Assembly: GCA_035968315.1 (NCBI GenBank)
Contig: JAVYIN010000003.1
Span: 124,001-188,000 of the forward strand
Reading direction: 5' to 3'
Source: Nitrospira sp.
Lineage (GTDB): Bacteria; Nitrospirota; Nitrospiria; Nitrospirales; Nitrospiraceae
Length of the DNA: 64,000 nucleotides
A model generated the notes under the pieces. The model ran no database searches and had not been told where the DNA came from. It saw nothing but the letters and a program-made list of their open reading frames with translations. The first letter of the stretch is position 1. Each line of letters begins with the position of its first letter. Below are positions 2,548-11,618 of this stretch, in pieces. A program made the translations under genes and the position numbers.

Positions 2548-4263
2548 TTACCGCTGATTCGCATCCGCCAGAATCCACTCGGCCGCATCGGAGAGCGAGG
2601 AAACGACGGCATCGGCCTCCCTGCACTCCCCGTCCTCTTCAGGAGATCCATGGACTTTCGTCTTGACCAGCACCCGCTTGGCCCCAATCCGTCTCGCCAG
2701 CTCCATATCCTTGGCATGATCGCCAACAAGATAGGATCGCGAGAGATCGATGGCTAACTCGTTCACCGCCTGTTCGACCATCCCGGTCTCCGGTTTTCGG
2801 CAATGACAGGTCTCGTCCGGATGATGGGGACAGAAATACATCCCCGCGAACGAAGCACCAGCCTCACCGGCCAGCCGCCGCAGCTTGGCGTGGATCTGCT
2901 CCAGATCGGCCGTTGAAAAGAAGCCTCTCCCGATCCCCGACTGATTCGTCACCAGCACCAGCCGCGCCCCGGCCCCTGTCAGTCTGGCCAGCGCCTCCGG
3001 CACACCGGGAAACAGTTCGAACTGCTCCGGGGAACGAATATAGCCGGGATCGGGATTCAAGGTCCCATCACGATCTAAAAAGACGGTGACTCCGTGAAGA
3101 AGGTCTGTTCGGTCTGTCTGGTCTGTTCGGTCTATCTGGTCAGTCTGGTCCGTCGAAGAACTTCCTCCTCGACCAGATAGACTAGACAGACTTCTTTGAC
3201 CAGATAGACAAGAGAGACCGGCCTCATACACCTGATCGACCGTGACTCCCGTCATGCAGCGATGATCGATGGGACACTCCCGCAACAGACAGGGCGCGCA
3301 CTCGACCGGGTGCCGAACCATGCCCTGCTCCTGGCCGTAGGGCGCCGTCGTGCGCCAATCGGTCGGGCCGAACACGGCCACCACTGGCACACCGAACGCC
3401 GCCGCAATGTGCATCGGCCCCGTATCATTCGTCACCAACAGGGCGCAACGCTTGGTCGCCGCCATCAATTCACGAATCGTCGTCTTGCCGGACAACACCA
3501 CCGAACGAATTCCAAGCCGCGCCGCGATGGCCTGCCCCAGCTCCTCTTCACCCTTCGCTCCCAGGATGATCACCGACAGGGTCCGCCCCTGCTGCCGGCC
3601 GATCTCCAGACTCAGTCGTGCTACGGTCTCAGCAAACCGCTCAGGCAACCAGCGCTTGGCCCCGCCATAGGTCGATCCGGGGTTGATCCCCAAAACGAGA
3701 TCCGTCTCGGCAATGCCGGCTTCCACCAAACGGCGATCCATCGCCCGTTCTTCGTCTTGATGCAGCGTCAACATCGGAGAGGCCGGCGTGCCGGCGAGCC
3801 CCAACGGTCTGAGCATATCCCAATAGTAGTGCACTTGATGTCGTAAGGCCTGCCGGTCGGGAACCGCCACAGGATCGGTCAGAAAAAAGACCCGCCCATC
3901 GGTGGCATACCCGTAGCGGCGGGGCATACCGGCCAGCCACGTGAGCAGCGCCGCCTCAAACGCATTTTGAAACAGCACCGCGAGATCGAACCGCTGCCGC
4001 CGCAACGTCCCAGCCAGCGTCCACTTTCCCGAAAGCCCCGCGTGGATCCCCTTGTCCTCATACCGCACGACATGATTCAGGCCAGGATAGGCAACGAAGA
4101 GCTCCGCGATCGCCGGTTTCGCCAGCAAGGTGAGCTCCGCCTGCGGAAAGAGCGACCGAAGACCTCGAAGCGCCGGTTCGCACATCACAGCATCGCCGAT
4201 CCAATTCGGCGCCCGTACCACGATGCGACGAAACGCCGCGCTTTTCCCGCTCATCCTGCTCAT
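2548..4263 (-). CDS. waaF-gmhB: Fusion protein: LPS heptosyltransferase II (GT9) + D,D-heptose 1,7-bisphosphate 7-phosphatase (HAD)
   Basis: About 571 residues from the ATG at 4261-4263, which overlaps the lpxK stop (ATGA). A longer upstream frame only mirrors lpxK. Residues about 10-345 are a GT9 domain (VVRAPNWIGDAVMCEPAL; INPGSTYGGAKRW; LLVTNDTGPMHIAAAFG; a CAPCLLRECP tail). Residues about 388-571 are a GmhB-type HAD phosphatase: FLDRDGTLN with the nucleophile, VTNQSGIGRG, the zinc loop CPHHPDETCHC, and VGDHAKDM. The two would act in one pathway: GmhB makes D-glycero-D-manno-heptose 1-phosphate on the way to ADP-heptose, and WaaF transfers heptose. Residues about 348-387 between them are encoded by a 9-bp-unit inverted repeat (Ser/Gly/Leu-rich, then Asp-Gln-Thr repeats). 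No stop separates the domains, so the fusion is predicted directly from sequence. Whether it stays uncleaved is unknown. Confidence 0.85.
   Translation of the reverse strand: MSRMSGKSAAFRRIVVRAPNWIGDAVMCEPALRGLRSLFPQAELTLLAKPAIAELFVAYPGLNHVVRYEDKGIHAGLSGKWTLAGTLRRQRFDLAVLFQNAFEAALLTWLAGMPRRYGYATDGRVFFLTDPVAVPDRQALRHQVHYYWDMLRPLGLAGTPASPMLTLHQDEERAMDRRLVEAGIAETDLVLGINPGSTYGGAKRWLPERFAETVARLSLEIGRQQGRTLSVIILGAKGEEELGQAIAARLGIRSVVLSGKTTIRELMAATKRCALLVTNDTGPMHIAAAFGVPVVAVFGPTDWRTTAPYGQEQGMVRHPVECAPCLLRECPIDHRCMTGVTVDQVYEAGLSCLSGQRSLSSLSGRGGSSSTDQTDQIDRTDQTDRTDLLHGVTVFLDRDGTLNPDPGYIRSPEQFELFPGVPEALARLTGAGARLVLVTNQSGIGRGFFSTADLEQIHAKLRRLAGEAGASFAGMYFCPHHPDETCHCRKPETGMVEQAVNELAIDLSRSYLVGDHAKDMELARRIGAKRVLVKTKVHGSPEEDGECREADAVVSSLSDAAEWILADANQR
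3102..3219. repeat. Inverted array of 9-bp units lying inside the WaaF-GmhB reading frame
   Basis: The left arm (3102-3151) is made of GGTCTGTTC, GGTCTGTCT and GGTCTATCT units. The right arm (about 3170-3218) carries the complement (GACCAGATAG, TAGACAGACT, GACCAGATAGACAAG), with a short loop between. On the coding strand it reads as a Leu-Ser-Gly segment followed by Asp-Gln-Thr/Asp-Arg-Thr repeats. It is the same family as 2442-2545, but here it is translated. Confidence 0.85.
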
Positions 4264-5363
4264 CGCGCTGTCCCTTCCGCCTCCTCCCCCTCGCCCCTTG
4301 CCTCGTGCCCCGTGCCCACTATAAGCCCGCGCAACCGCGCTTCCCCGCGCACCACATCCGCGCGCAGCCGCAAGGCCCACCACTGGTCATCAGCCGCCAG
4401 CAGCGGCGCGAGCTTCCCGGCATCTTTTTCCGTCGTCAATACGATCTCCGCCCCCACGCGAGCAGCCTGTCCGCGAATGCGAACTACATCCTCCAACCCA
4501 TAGCCATGATGATCGATATACGCCGTTTCGCCCAACACCTGTATTCCAAGATCCATGGCCAATCGCCGGAACGCCTCGCTGTTACCGATCCCGCTCACCA
4601 GCCAGGCCTTCTTCCCGACAACCCAATCGACAGGGTGACGGTCGCCGGTCATCACGGATACGAGCTCATCTGACTTGAACCGCACTTCCACGGCGAGCGA
4701 CTCAGAAGGCAGCATCCTCTGCAAGCGGCTGCGAACCGCCGACACGTCCCGCTCCGAGTCAGCGCGCGTGATCACCACGGCCGTCGCGCGCCGCACGCCG
4801 TCCAACGGCTCGCGGAGCCGCCCGGCCGGCAGGAGCGCATCCAATCCTGTGGCATCCATCGCATCCACGAGCACCACATCGCAATCTCGCGAGAGCGCCC
4901 GATGCTGAAACCCGTCATCCAGGATGATGCAATCCACCGGTTCTTGCGCCAATACCCAACGGCCCAAGGAGGCACGATCCGCCCCGACCGCCACGATGGC
5001 CTTCGGACAACGGCGCGCGATCAGATAGGGTTCGTCTCCCGCTTCGCCTGGTCCGGCCAGCAGACTCCGGCCATCCGACACCAACAGGCGAGACGCCGTC
5101 GATGCACGTTTGTATCCCCGGCTGAGGATCGCCACCCGCTGGCCCTGCGCCAGCAGCCATTCCGTCAAGAGAATCACCAGCGGGGTCTTGCCGGTGCCTC
5201 CGACGGTCAGGTTCCCCACACTGATCACGCGGCAAGGCAGCCGTGCCTGCGCACACCACCCGCGATCATACGCCCGCATCCGGAGCCGGACCACGAGGCC
5301 ATATAGAACGGCCGCCCATCCCAACCAGGATCGAACCGGATCCCCCGGTCGCAACCACGCCAC
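4260..5363 (-). CDS. lpxK: Tetraacyldisaccharide 4'-kinase
   Basis: 367 residues. Phosphorylates the 4' position of the lipid A disaccharide precursor at the inner membrane. The N-terminus has a membrane-anchoring stretch (about residues 12-30), then the P-loop SVGNLTVGGTGKTPLV at about 48-63, LSRGYKR, and ILDDGFQHR, the family's DDGFQH motif. The start at 5363 lies 2 bp after the waaA stop. The stop overlaps the waaF-gmhB start. The last 18 or so residues (Gly/Glu/Arg-rich) come from a C-rich repeat at 4281-4318 and look like an acquired tail. Confidence 0.93.
   Translation of the reverse strand: MAWLRPGDPVRSWLGWAAVLYGLVVRLRMRAYDRGWCAQARLPCRVISVGNLTVGGTGKTPLVILLTEWLLAQGQRVAILSRGYKRASTASRLLVSDGRSLLAGPGEAGDEPYLIARRCPKAIVAVGADRASLGRWVLAQEPVDCIILDDGFQHRALSRDCDVVLVDAMDATGLDALLPAGRLREPLDGVRRATAVVITRADSERDVSAVRSRLQRMLPSESLAVEVRFKSDELVSVMTGDRHPVDWVVGKKAWLVSGIGNSEAFRRLAMDLGIQVLGETAYIDHHGYGLEDVVRIRGQAARVGAEIVLTTEKDAGKLAPLLAADDQWWALRLRADVVRGEARLRGLIVGTGHEARGEGEEAEGTAR
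4281..4318. repeat. C/G-rich short repeat at the lpxK 3' end
   Basis: The plus strand reads CTCCTCCCCCTCGCCCCTTG followed by CCTCGTGCCCCGTGCCC. Similar CTCGCCCCTCGCC wording occurs at 52642-52672 inside a membrane-protein gene and around 61180-61265 next to smbP. Here it encodes the low-complexity C-terminus of LpxK. Confidence 0.5.
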
Positions 5364-5365
5364 GC

Positions 5366-6751
5366 TTACGACCCCACCATCGCAGCCTGCGAGGCACGAT
5401 CAGCAGACCGGGACGCAGAATGACGAGCGGTTCGGAAGCACGCTTCAATGAGATCGAGGCTCCGCTTCAATGCGCCTTGATTATCACGCACCATCTGGCG
5501 CGCCGCCTCACCCGTGCGACGGCACGCCTCCTCATCCGTGAGCCACTGGCTCATCTGGCGTGCAAGCTCATCGGCATTCGCAACCCGCACGCCTCCGCCT
5601 GCCTCCAGCAACATCGCGGCAATCTCCGCGCAATGATCCGTATAGGGGCCGAACAGCACCGGCTTGCCCCACACGGCCGGCTCCAATAAATTATGCCCCC
5701 CCACAGGCACCAGCGTCCCGCCGACAAAGGCGACCGCCGCTTCGCCATAGGCCTGAGCCAATTCCCCCCGCGTATCGAGAATGATCACCCGCGGCCCGGT
5801 GACTCTCCGATCGAGCTGGCTCTTGCGTTGCACCGCCAATCCGGTTGACGCGACCATCGCGATCACCGCCGGCACGCGTTCGATATGACGCGGAGCCAGC
5901 ATAAGAGCGGCATGAGGATGCCTGCCGATAACTTGTTGATAGGCCGCGACCAGCGCCTCTTCCTCACCCGCATGCGTACTGCCGGCGAGCAGAAGCGACT
6001 CGCCCTCATGCACCCCCAACCTGGAGCGAAACGAGGGCTCGGCCACCGTCGCCGGCATGGGCTGATCGAACTTGATGTTGCCGGTCCTATGCACCCGATC
6101 GGCATCGGCCCCCAAGGCCACGATGCGCTGCACATCGCGCTCCGATTGCATAAGACAGAGCGTGAGCGACCGCAGCACGGAACGATAGAACGACGTGAGA
6201 CCGGCGACATGCTGCCGTGAAAATGATCGTGACGACAACCGGCCATTGACCAAAACGGCCGGCACCTGCCGGTCCCGCAGAGCCCACAAGAGATTCGGCC
6301 AGAGTTCGGTCTCGACGAACACATAAAGCACAGGCTGCCACTGCGCGATCGCGTGTGACACGGCCCAGGGAACGTCGAGCGGAGCATACCGGTGTTCCGC
6401 CACCCCAGCCAATCGCTGCTCGACCGCCTCCCGGCCTGTTTCCGTGACCGTCGACACGATGAACCGGTGATCGGGATGGCTGCGGTGCAGATCTTTCACC
6501 AGCGGCGTCACCGCCACCACTTCGCCGAGAGACACGGCATGAATCCAGATAGTCGGTCTATTCGGTCTGTCTGGTTCGTTTGGTCTGTCTGGTCGACCCG
6601 ATGGACGAGACAGACTAAATAGACCAAACAGGCGATCCCCGCCGAACAACCGTTGGCGCAGTCCCCGACGGCATCGTTTCTTGGCGAGCAGAATGCAGAG
6701 AATGATCGGAGTAGCCAGAATGAGCAGCGTATTGTAGAGCAGTCGCCACAT
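5366..6751 (-). CDS. waaA: 3-deoxy-D-manno-octulosonic acid (Kdo) transferase
   Basis: About 461 residues from the ATG at 6749-6751 (MWRLLYNTLLIL). A frame extending 15 codons upstream has no support. It transfers Kdo from CMP-Kdo to lipid IVA at the cytoplasmic side of the inner membrane. Features: an N-terminal transmembrane anchor, then WIHAVSLGEVVAVTPL, VFVETELWPNLLW, LLLAGSTHAGEEE, and the C-terminal AFVGGTLVPVGGHNLLEPA motif of GT30. Residues about 40-66, between the anchor and the first GT-B domain, are encoded by a 9-bp-unit inverted repeat and read as an Arg/Pro/Asn-rich insert. lpxK follows 2 bp downstream. Confidence 0.93.
   Translation of the reverse strand: MWRLLYNTLLILATPIILCILLAKKRCRRGLRQRLFGGDRLFGLFSLSRPSGRPDRPNEPDRPNRPTIWIHAVSLGEVVAVTPLVKDLHRSHPDHRFIVSTVTETGREAVEQRLAGVAEHRYAPLDVPWAVSHAIAQWQPVLYVFVETELWPNLLWALRDRQVPAVLVNGRLSSRSFSRQHVAGLTSFYRSVLRSLTLCLMQSERDVQRIVALGADADRVHRTGNIKFDQPMPATVAEPSFRSRLGVHEGESLLLAGSTHAGEEEALVAAYQQVIGRHPHAALMLAPRHIERVPAVIAMVASTGLAVQRKSQLDRRVTGPRVIILDTRGELAQAYGEAAVAFVGGTLVPVGGHNLLEPAVWGKPVLFGPYTDHCAEIAAMLLEAGGGVRVANADELARQMSQWLTDEEACRRTGEAARQMVRDNQGALKRSLDLIEACFRTARHSASRSADRASQAAMVGS
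6553..6631. repeat. Inverted array of 9-bp units inside waaA
   Basis: The left arm at 6553-6594 consists of GGTCTATTC, GGTCTGTCT, GGTTCGTTT and GGTCTGTCT. The right arm at 6604-6631 carries the complement (GACGAGACAGACTAAATAG). It encodes a low-complexity Ser/Arg/Pro/Asn segment in WaaA. It belongs to the family at 2442, 3102, 7511 and 11589. Confidence 0.85.
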
Positions 6752-6789
6752 GAGATTGCTACAGCGCGAGAGAGGCGCGACAGGCGAGA

Positions 6790-7508
6790 CTAGCACGCCC
6801 CACCTTTCACGCCAGTCTTGCTTTTCCCGCTCATCGCGACAACGTCCGCTTCCGCCTCAGCTGTCAGCCGATTCAGCGCTGATTCCAGTTCGACGCGAGC
6901 GGCTTCAAGGGCAGCCTCATCCGCCTCGCGCGAGACCCAGATCGGTGCGCCCCAGAGGAACAGTCCCCGCGAGAAGGGATACGGCACCATGAAGCGATCC
7001 CAGCTCGAGAAGAGTTTTTTTTTGAGCAGCCAAACCCCAAGGGAACAATCGGCAACCCGGTGGCCTTCGCCAGCTGAATCACGCCCAGCTTGGCCACCTG
7101 CCGAGGCCCTTTGGGGCCGTCCGGCGTCACCACCACATCTTTCCCCGACCGTCCAAGCTTGATCAACGCACGCAACGCTCCGGCTCCGCCTCTCGTACTC
7201 GACCCGCGCACCGCCTCGTGGCCGAATCGGGCAATAATTCTGGCAATGATCTCTCCGTCTCCGTGCTGGCTGATCAAGACATGCGAGCCGGCGCCGCGAT
7301 AGCCAAAGGGGATCATCAACTGCTGCGCATGCCAGAACGCGAGAATGATCGACCGCCCCTCGCGATACAACGCATCCACCGGTTCATGGCCCCGCTGCTC
7401 CAGCCGCATCGTCCCCTTAATTCCGCGGATCACCAGCGCCCCGAGCGGCGGCAGCACCGTAAACTTGAGCCAATTCTCGATGCGCTTCTTTATGCTCATG
7501 TGGTTCAT
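6790..7508 (-). CDS. DUF374 lysophospholipid acyltransferase-family protein, split by a frame change at an A9 run
   Basis: The zero frame from 7508 codes for about 164 good residues: IILAFWHAQQLMIP, SQHGDGEIIARI and VTPDGPKGPR, all typical of DUF374. It then runs into a coding-strand run of nine A (plus strand T9 at 7015-7023) and continues as unrelated sequence to a stop at 6873. The -1 frame after the run continues the family exactly, LFSSWDRFMVPYPFSRG, to a stop at 6790, giving about 239 residues in all. The codons at the run are TCA AAA AAA AAC, an A-AAA-AAA slippery heptamer. The protein may be made by -1 frameshifting or transcriptional slippage, or the gene may be mutated or misread. 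Between msbA and waaA it may add a late acyl chain to lipid A, by context only. A second ATG at 7499 is an alternative start. Confidence 0.8.
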
Positions 7509-7510
7509 CT

Positions 7511-7558
7511 CGTCTGTCTGGTCTATCTAGTCTGTTTGGTCTATTCGGTCTATCTGGC
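7511..7558. repeat. 9-bp-unit array upstream of the DUF374 gene
   Basis: Units GTCTGTCTG, GTCTATCTA, GTCTGTTTG, GTCTATTCG and GTCTATCTG run in tandem between the msbA stop (7589) and the acyltransferase start (7508). Only one arm is present here, with no matching complement nearby. Confidence 0.8.
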
Positions 7559-7588: not shown

Positions 7589-9334
7589 TCATCCATTCGC
7601 GACATCCTGAAACTGCATCGCATGCAAGCGCCGATACAATCCGTTCTTCCGCAGCAACTCCTCGTGCGACCCGATCTCGGCAATCCTGCCCCGGTCCAAG
7701 ACCACAATCCGATCCGCATTCTGCACTGTCGAGAGACGATGAGCAATCACCACCGTCGTCCGGTTCCGCATTAAATTGCTTAACGCCAACTGCACAATGC
7801 GCTCGGATTCCGTGTCGAGCGCGGAGGTCGCTTCGTCGAGAATCAGCAACGGCGGGTCCCGCAAAATCGCCCGCGCAATCGCCAGCCGCTGGCGCTGGCC
7901 GCCAGACAGTTTCACACCCCGCTCACCGATCACCGTGGCATACCCGTCCGGCAATTGCATGATAAAGTCATGGGCATAGGCCTGCACGGCCGCTCGTTCC
8001 ACATCTTGCGGGCTCGCACCGGGACGGCCAAAGGCAATGTTATTCGCCACCGTATCGTCGAACAACACAATGTCTTGCGAGACAATTCCGATCTGGGCGC
8101 GCAACGACGGCAAGGAATAGGATTCCAGCGGCGTGCCATCGAGCAGAATCCGTCCGCTCGTCGGCTGATAAAATCTGGGCAAGAGGCTCACCAGCGTGCT
8201 CTTTCCACTCCCGCTGCTGCCCACGAGCGCCACGACCTCGCCGGTACGAATCGCCAGGTCGATCCCCGACAGCGCCGCCGCCGTCTGCCCGTTATAGCTG
8301 AGCGCCACGCCTTGGAACTCGATGCCCTGGCGGATGCCCTGACACTCCACCGTCCCTCGATCCTGGTCCTGCTCCGTTCTCAGATCGAGCACTTCATACA
8401 CCCGTTCAGCCGCCGCCAAGGCCTGCTGAATCAAATTATTCGAGCCCGCCAGTTTTCTGATCGGCGTAAACGCCATAAACATGGCCGTGAGAAAGGAGAA
8501 GAACGCCCCCGGCGTCATCTCATCGTGAATGACGAGGTAGCCGCCATACCAGATAATCACCGCCACGCCGATGACGCCGATCACTTCCATGTGGGACGAC
8601 CCGATCGACCACACTTGATTCGCCTTGAGCGTCGTCGCGAGAAACGCCTGGTTGCTGACGGCAAAGCGCTGAGCTTCCGCCTCTTCCCGTTTGAACGCCT
8701 TCACCATCCGGATGCCGCTCAAGGTCTCCTGAATGGTGTTCGACATGTCGCCCATCCGCTCCTGCCCCTTGGTGGCCAGCGTCCGCAGGCGCCGGCCCAT
8801 CCGCGACATCGTGACGACCGACAGCGGAATGACCACGATCGACAGGCCGGCCAATTTCCAATTTTGATAGAAAATCACCCCCAGCATCACGAGAAACGTG
8901 AGGCTGTGCTGGAAAATATCTTTCAAGACGTTGGACACCGCGTTGGCCATCAAGCTGACATCGTTGACGACGCGCGAGACCAGCCGACCTGAGGTATTCT
9001 CGTCGTGATACCCCACCGGCAAGCGCATGAGATGCTGGAACAGCGCCTGACGGATATCCGCAATCACCCGGTTGCCGACATAACTCGTCAAATAGGTCTG
9101 CCCATAGCTAAAAAAAGCCTTCACAATCGATACGCCTAACAGGGCCAGCGGCAAGGCCAGCAACAGGCTCTCGTTTTTTTCGATGAAGATGCCGTCAAGC
9201 ACCGGTTTGACCAACCAGGCATAGAGGCCGGACAAGGCGGCCACCGCCCCTGAACAGGCGATGGCCACGATGAACCGCGCCCGATACGGGCGGACATACC
9301 GAACGAGACGTCGAAATCGCTCTAGGCTCGACAT
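7589..9334 (-). CDS. msbA: Lipid A / phospholipid flippase, ABC exporter
   Basis: 581 residues with the fused half-transporter layout. Residues about 1-310 form six membrane helices (FIVAIACSGAVAALSGLYA, ALLGVSIVKAFF and others). Residues about 340-575 form the nucleotide-binding domain: Walker A GSSGSGKSTLVSLL, Q-loop IGIVSQDIVLFD, signature LSGGQRQRLAIARAI, Walker B LLILDEATSALD and switch IAHRLST. The protein flips lipid A-core across the inner membrane. It overlaps the end of lpxB by 13 bp, in keeping with its lipid A role. MsbA is favoured over a generic ABC exporter because of the surrounding lpx/waa genes. Confidence 0.93.
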   Translation of the reverse strand: MSSLERFRRLVRYVRPYRARFIVAIACSGAVAALSGLYAWLVKPVLDGIFIEKNESLLLALPLALLGVSIVKAFFSYGQTYLTSYVGNRVIADIRQALFQHLMRLPVGYHDENTSGRLVSRVVNDVSLMANAVSNVLKDIFQHSLTFLVMLGVIFYQNWKLAGLSIVVIPLSVVTMSRMGRRLRTLATKGQERMGDMSNTIQETLSGIRMVKAFKREEAEAQRFAVSNQAFLATTLKANQVWSIGSSHMEVIGVIGVAVIIWYGGYLVIHDEMTPGAFFSFLTAMFMAFTPIRKLAGSNNLIQQALAAAERVYEVLDLRTEQDQDRGTVECQGIRQGIEFQGVALSYNGQTAAALSGIDLAIRTGEVVALVGSSGSGKSTLVSLLPRFYQPTSGRILLDGTPLESYSLPSLRAQIGIVSQDIVLFDDTVANNIAFGRPGASPQDVERAAVQAYAHDFIMQLPDGYATVIGERGVKLSGGQRQRLAIARAILRDPPLLILDEATSALDTESERIVQLALSNLMRNRTTVVIAHRLSTVQNADRIVVLDRGRIAEIGSHEELLRKNGLYRRLHAMQFQDVANG

Positions 9335-11588: not shown

Positions 11589-11618
11589 GTCTGTCTGGTC
11601 TGTCTGGTCTGTCTGGTC
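11589..11618. repeat. Three perfect 9-bp GTCTGTCTG units
   Basis: GTCTGTCTG occurs three times head to tail with no mismatch, followed by GTC. It lies at the 5' edge of the Gfo/Idh gene. If the earlier start is used it is translated as Asp-Gln-Thr repeats. It is the cleanest copy of the family and defines the unit. Confidence 0.9.

Follow-up and report, generated by a model that had tools for sequence, protein, structure and literature searches.

A run of nine adenines (A9) interrupts an acyltransferase gene on the minus strand of a Nitrospira sp. contig, and the protein family is continued past the run only in the -1 frame. The gene is most likely a functional lpxJ, encoding a late lipid A acyltransferase of the DUF374 family, and comparative sequence data suggest that its full-length product is slippage-dependent. 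That it is a functional recoded gene, by whatever mechanism, we consider very probable. The features discussed below lie in a 64,000-nucleotide stretch of the contig (the window):

7024..7508, minus strand: N-terminal part of LpxJ/DUF374, zero frame, starting at ATG 7508 or ATG 7499
7015..7023, minus strand: A9 slippery run (T9 on the plus strand), zero-frame codons TCA AAA AAA AAC with A_AAA_AAA within
6790..7017, minus strand: C-terminal part of LpxJ in the -1 frame, 75 codons and a stop; includes W170-D171 of the fused protein, the last strands and the C-terminal helix
6873..7014, minus strand: zero-frame tail past the run, translated in the absence of a slip; not under constraint, with a variable stop
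6979..7029, minus strand: stretch with suppressed synonymous variation around the run, TGYTCA-A9-CTYTTYKCGAGCTGGGAY...
7589..9334, minus strand: msbA-like lipid A flippase, upstream neighbour (by reading of the ORF)
5366..6796, minus strand: waaA/kdtA-like Kdo transferase, downstream neighbour (by reading of the ORF), which with a GTG start would overlap the 3' end of lpxJ

The broken gene and its product

The zero-frame ORF (6873-7508, minus strand) encodes 211 amino acids and reads ...GCSKKN followed by SSRAGIASW... at the run, while past A9 the -1 frame continues as KLFSSWDRFMVPYPFSRG..., with 75 codons before the stop at 6790-6792. The first-pass annotation had described a DUF374 gene split at this run, in slippery phase and restored in the -1 frame, and all three points hold: the zero-frame ORF leaves the family at the run, A_AAA_AAA is in frame at all sites, and both the relatives and a tail of coding type choose the -1 frame. 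The Pfam DUF374 domain (PF04028) covers residues 71-136 in both versions (94-96 bits versus a cut-off of 26.8); since this match precedes the run in either form, the domain alone cannot choose the frame, which is decided by the relatives. Additional members of the lipid A cluster near lpxJ, named by reading their ORFs, are lpxK, lpxB, lpxI, lpxA and fabZ. A phage near-identity search gave no match.

Among 70 members of the genus, codon-position entropies in the -1 tail are 0.37/0.27/1.01, compared with 0.39/0.24/1.29 in the part upstream of the run. Variation is greatest at third positions of the -1 frame, which coincide with zero-frame second positions; protein-level conservation of the zero-frame tail is therefore absent, and dual coding of this tail was rejected on the same grounds. 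Its stop lies 3 to 265 nt past the run, and the common zero-frame stop seems to arise where the -1 frame encodes a conserved Leu-Asn. A separate start inside the -1 frame was also rejected: the only candidate Met follows SWDRF/Y, its product would leave out Trp-Asp, and this Met is constant in the genus (70/70) but L or I in other groups. Third codon positions within 6979-7029 are unusually conserved for approximately 12 codons past A9, beyond apparent protein need, and this suppression of synonymous variation is explained by neither a slippage nor a frameshifting model.

Residues essential in LpxJ of R. typhi are W60, H61, D86, D132, W172 and D173, with H84 dispensable (PMC6148475). In the fused Nitrospira protein W59, H60, H82, D84, D130, W170 and D171 reproduce the spacing of W60/H61/H84/D86/D132/W172/D173; W170 and D171, 8 and 9 residues past the Ser that opens the SKKK stretch, are present only in the -1 frame. 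LpxJ of Rickettsia, Helicobacter and Campylobacter belongs to the same DUF374 family with the same essential-residue spacing, but the paper describing it (PMC6148475), from which, rather than from those genomes, the comparison is drawn, mentions no frameshift. While a PDB sequence search gave no useful match, the AlphaFold2 model of an in-frame homologue (L278; pLDDT 93.9) has a lysophospholipid-acyltransferase-like fold and matches 5kym PlsC, 5knk LpxM and 5f2z PatA with E of about 1e-7 to 1e-5. The post-run part of this model comprises three strands and a long C-terminal helix. Because the unshifted product would lack these elements as well as the Trp-Asp essential in R. typhi LpxJ, it is predicted to be inactive. 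The activity expected of a full-length LpxJ would be 3' secondary acylation of lipid A.

Of 20 genomes searched, 6 have an acyltransferase of the canonical LpxL/LpxM type (PF03279), and the genome of the window is one of the 6, so LpxJ is the only recognised late acyltransferase in most sampled genomes, though not in the one studied here. The PF03279 acyltransferase of the latter lies at G000:C8:139433-140245 (176 bits); most sampled relatives are without one.

Conservation of the break

Protein and family searches recovered 167 homologous loci. Run length in relatives, a comparison proposed in the first-pass annotation, proved nearly constant: a -1 step is needed in 162 of the 167, at A9 in 152 and at A10 in 10. 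These 162 broken loci span numerous Nitrospirota genera and classes, and no run of 7 or 8 A's or interrupted by G occurs among them. Within the genus the gene is present in 75 of 79 genomes, and 74 of the 75 have exactly A9 and the same break; the exception (L080) carries TCCCAAAAAACACTC and is in frame without a long run. Every further family-level locus read has the break too, and it extends to the sister families f2 and f3 and to other Nitrospirota classes. The other loci outside the 162 are L218, L222 and L223, which are in frame without the run, and L074 (G011), which was rejected as a compensated in-frame copy since undetermined bases just upstream spoil its frame.

The whole genome (3.11 Mb, pattern search of both strands) contains just two A9 runs, which, with the recurrence in 162 homologues, makes the A9 break more than chance. 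The second run (L286) appears intergenic by eye, with stops in most frames and an adjoining terminator-like GC-rich stretch.

To look beyond this set, 84,980 species were scanned with a pattern of A9, a spacer and codons for Trp-Asp-x-aromatic; as A9 was required, the scan is blind to shorter runs and to delta-type or acidobacterial genomes without the run. It returned 61 stretches, of which approximately 57 are DUF374 genes, with a -1 step needed in about 54 and a +1 step in none. The matches come from Nitrospirota, Acidobacteria/Acidobacteriota and delta-type records (Deltaproteobacteria, Syntrophorhabdus, Syntrophus etc.). Neighbours of the Syntrophorhabdus gene (L250) are, by reading, arranged as in the window (msbA, lpxJ, waaA), with lpxB. 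Among the pattern-found loci, L278 (A10) and L281 (A9) are in frame and L282 scores -1. L278:1296-1961 and L281:7028-7708 are thus natural in-frame lpxJ genes that keep their runs, close to out-of-frame relatives.

All -1 genes in the set used for tree construction carry A9 (96) or A10 (18), while the longest A run in the 26 in-frame genes is 2-6 in 24 cases and 9 and 10 in the other two. On the tree (139 rows) the frame state changes 5 times, versus 24 with shuffled labels. In-frame lineages are f24, f20 with f23, f34, and the single loci L080, L278 and L281. The tree has a midpoint root and some deep forks open, so that gain versus loss of the break at the base is not fixed by it. Normal-frame relatives lacking the run, which the first-pass annotation would have taken as refuting its proposal, do exist, but they are either scattered reversions or lineages of their own, placed next to or outside the clade that carries the run.

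Homopolymers are error-prone, and assembly error was one of the explanations initially put forward for this locus, as was a plain one-base loss. Both are rejected: independent genomes from many genera, several classes and no fewer than three phyla share the break, and the tail that follows it is under coding constraint. This recurrence indicates that the conserved break is neither a sequencing error nor the mark of a decaying gene, and we assign a negligible probability to an assembly error or pseudogene. Phase variation, in which DNA-level slippage would toggle the gene between an A10 on state and an A9 off state, might be suggested by a homopolymer in a surface-related gene and by the in-frame A10 of L278 beside its A9 relative L283. 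Free switching should, however, leave many genomes in frame, whereas no protein-found locus with an intact run of at least 9 is in frame, and both A9 and A10 genes are out of frame in Nitrospirota; we therefore regard phase variation as highly improbable.

Candidate mechanisms of frame restoration

We propose, as the most likely explanation, that RNA polymerase slips on the A9 or A10 run, adding one A to a fraction of transcripts. Transcripts with the extra A would give full-length LpxJ, and unslipped transcripts a protein ending about 50 residues past the run in a random tail, without Trp-Asp; the benefit would lie in keeping only part of the enzyme active, in a share that is constant or can be adjusted. 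Programmed transcriptional slippage as the main machine appears moderately probable from how the run is conserved. A run length that stays constant among homologues has been described as a mark of purposeful slippage (Baranov 2005, PMC1088944), and the features that make up this slippage criterion (about 9 A's, kept in homologues, with a conserved downstream frame) were all found at lpxJ.

Codon usage and run length favour RNA polymerase as the agent. Lysine codons in 13 neighbouring genes are AAG 130 times and AAA 63 times, while all codons of the run are AAA. Residues at the run position are variable in aligned in-frame homologues, so the protein does not require the run lysines, and the run is pure A despite the AAG preference. 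Run length in the protein-found set is always 9-10 and never 7-8. Broken loci fall into two codon registers, in which the first A of the run occupies codon position 3 (148 A9, 15 A10) or 1 (52 A9, 3 A10), and all need a -1 step. Nine A's are retained in each register even though the two that the heptamer does not use fall on one side of it in one register and on the other side in the other, which again points to RNA polymerase, although this argument rests mostly on loci selected by the A9 pattern, with approximately 8 position-1 cases among protein-found loci.

The main alternative agent is the ribosome: in programmed -1 frameshifting, tRNA-Lys pairs would slip on A_AAA_AAA(C) of an unedited mRNA, with a stimulator that is weak, unrecognised or absent. 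We treat this as possible but tentative. An X_XXY_YYZ heptamer, A_AAA_AAA, is in the zero frame at every site in both registers, and the synonymous suppression around the run would also suit a ribosomal signal; both observations count against transcriptional slippage. The same is true of a step that is always -1 and never +1, a single direction that was read as a sign of ribosomal frameshifting by Antonov 2013 (PMC3711429), though common descent also explains it. In E. coli, chelatase cassettes gave 40% frameshifting with A9 versus 10% with A7 (PMC3711429). Against the ribosomal reading, 9-10 A's are kept where 7 suffice, and no A_AAA_AAG site occurs. An SD-like motif is present within 22 nt upstream of the run in just 1 of 160 loci. 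No clear stem-loop stimulator was found downstream, and GCTC...GAGC pairing around the run occurs in only 89 of 160 loci. Mean z-scores for downstream folding are -0.74 (40 nt) and -0.25 (65 nt), with -0.13 for the control. The lack of an SD-like element and the scarcity of downstream structure favour RNA polymerase, but stimulators are common rather than obligatory in ribosomal frameshifting, and the value of -0.74 is not zero, which counts against transcriptional slippage.

Whether slippage is selected or tolerated is a separate question, compatible with either machine. An old neutral insertion or loss could have left a gene in which slippage is merely tolerated and the truncated product has no selected role. 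The unconstrained zero-frame tail is in line with this reading, as are the tolerated in-frame reversions in L080, L278 and L281, and slippage is reported to rescue an interrupted gene, tssM, in Citrobacter (PMC4256274). However, gaining one A is enough to bring the gene back in frame, and homopolymers are prone to mutation; still, among more than 200 loci the run-bearing clade shows only 3 sporadic reversions, and we consider tolerated slippage rather unlikely. Why a frame-restoring single A has been fixed so rarely is a puzzle.

Further, the slip fraction might be regulated or tuned so as to control lipid A acylation, which would make the run an ancient switch that acts by recoding in outer-membrane synthesis. 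Nucleotide pools, temperature or the state of RNA polymerase would then influence slippage and so set the amount of active LpxJ, and the truncated form, which would keep the His/Asp half of the active site without Trp-Asp, might inhibit or partner the full-length enzyme. This extension is speculative and, in our judgement, improbable.

Known poly-A systems and other features of the window

Conserved A9 slippage is known in IS elements and mapW (Baranov 2005, PMC1088944). The poly-A slippage genes (Thermus thermophilus dnaX, mxiE, IS elements and mapW; PMC1088944) resemble lpxJ in having about 9 A's of constant length in a coding sequence, with a change of frame there. They are, however, IS elements or confined to single lineages, or, in dnaX, slippage gives a shorter product, whereas lpxJ is a chromosomal metabolic gene of at least three phyla in which the slip is apparently needed for active enzyme. 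Magnesium chelatase chlD (Antonov 2013, PMC3711429; PMC9227772) is likewise a chromosomal biosynthetic gene with 7-11 A's, a -1 step and two products, but it is another gene, downstream structures have been described for it, and its two products are thought to be two subunits. Antonov 2013 (PMC3711429) lists dnaX, chlD and a GeneTack cluster named 'Tetraacyldisaccharide kinase / acyltransferase', a lipid A gene pair flagged for frameshifting or coupling. Compared by name only, it carries the names of two enzymes and so would seem to concern the boundary of two genes and not an interruption within LpxJ itself.

No report of frameshifting or slippage in DUF374, LpxJ or Nitrospira was found in the open-access literature, the scope of the search, which excluded subscription papers. 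The lpxJ case would thus be new, although of a known recoding type, and would be distinguished by unusually deep conservation and by a slip needed for active enzyme. If true, few instances of poly-A recoding in a chromosomal metabolic gene would be conserved as deeply, and gene callers will have annotated LpxJ in truncated or split form in genomes of these groups. Whether a core outer-membrane enzyme depends on slippage by RNA polymerase is a testable question.

The window also contains a 9-bp tandem unit, GTCTRTYYR, with 15 matches versus 0 expected (27 in the genome). Its clusters, some oppositely oriented, lie just upstream of lpxJ and within ORFs, where they encode DQTDQTD linkers:

2443-2533, 3103-3191, 6556-6624, 7512-7553 and 11589-11612: GTCTRTYYR repeat clusters (pattern matches)

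By reading, the product of the ORF at 2548-4383 is first heptosyltransferase-like and then HAD-phosphatase-like, with a repeat-encoded linker between the two parts.
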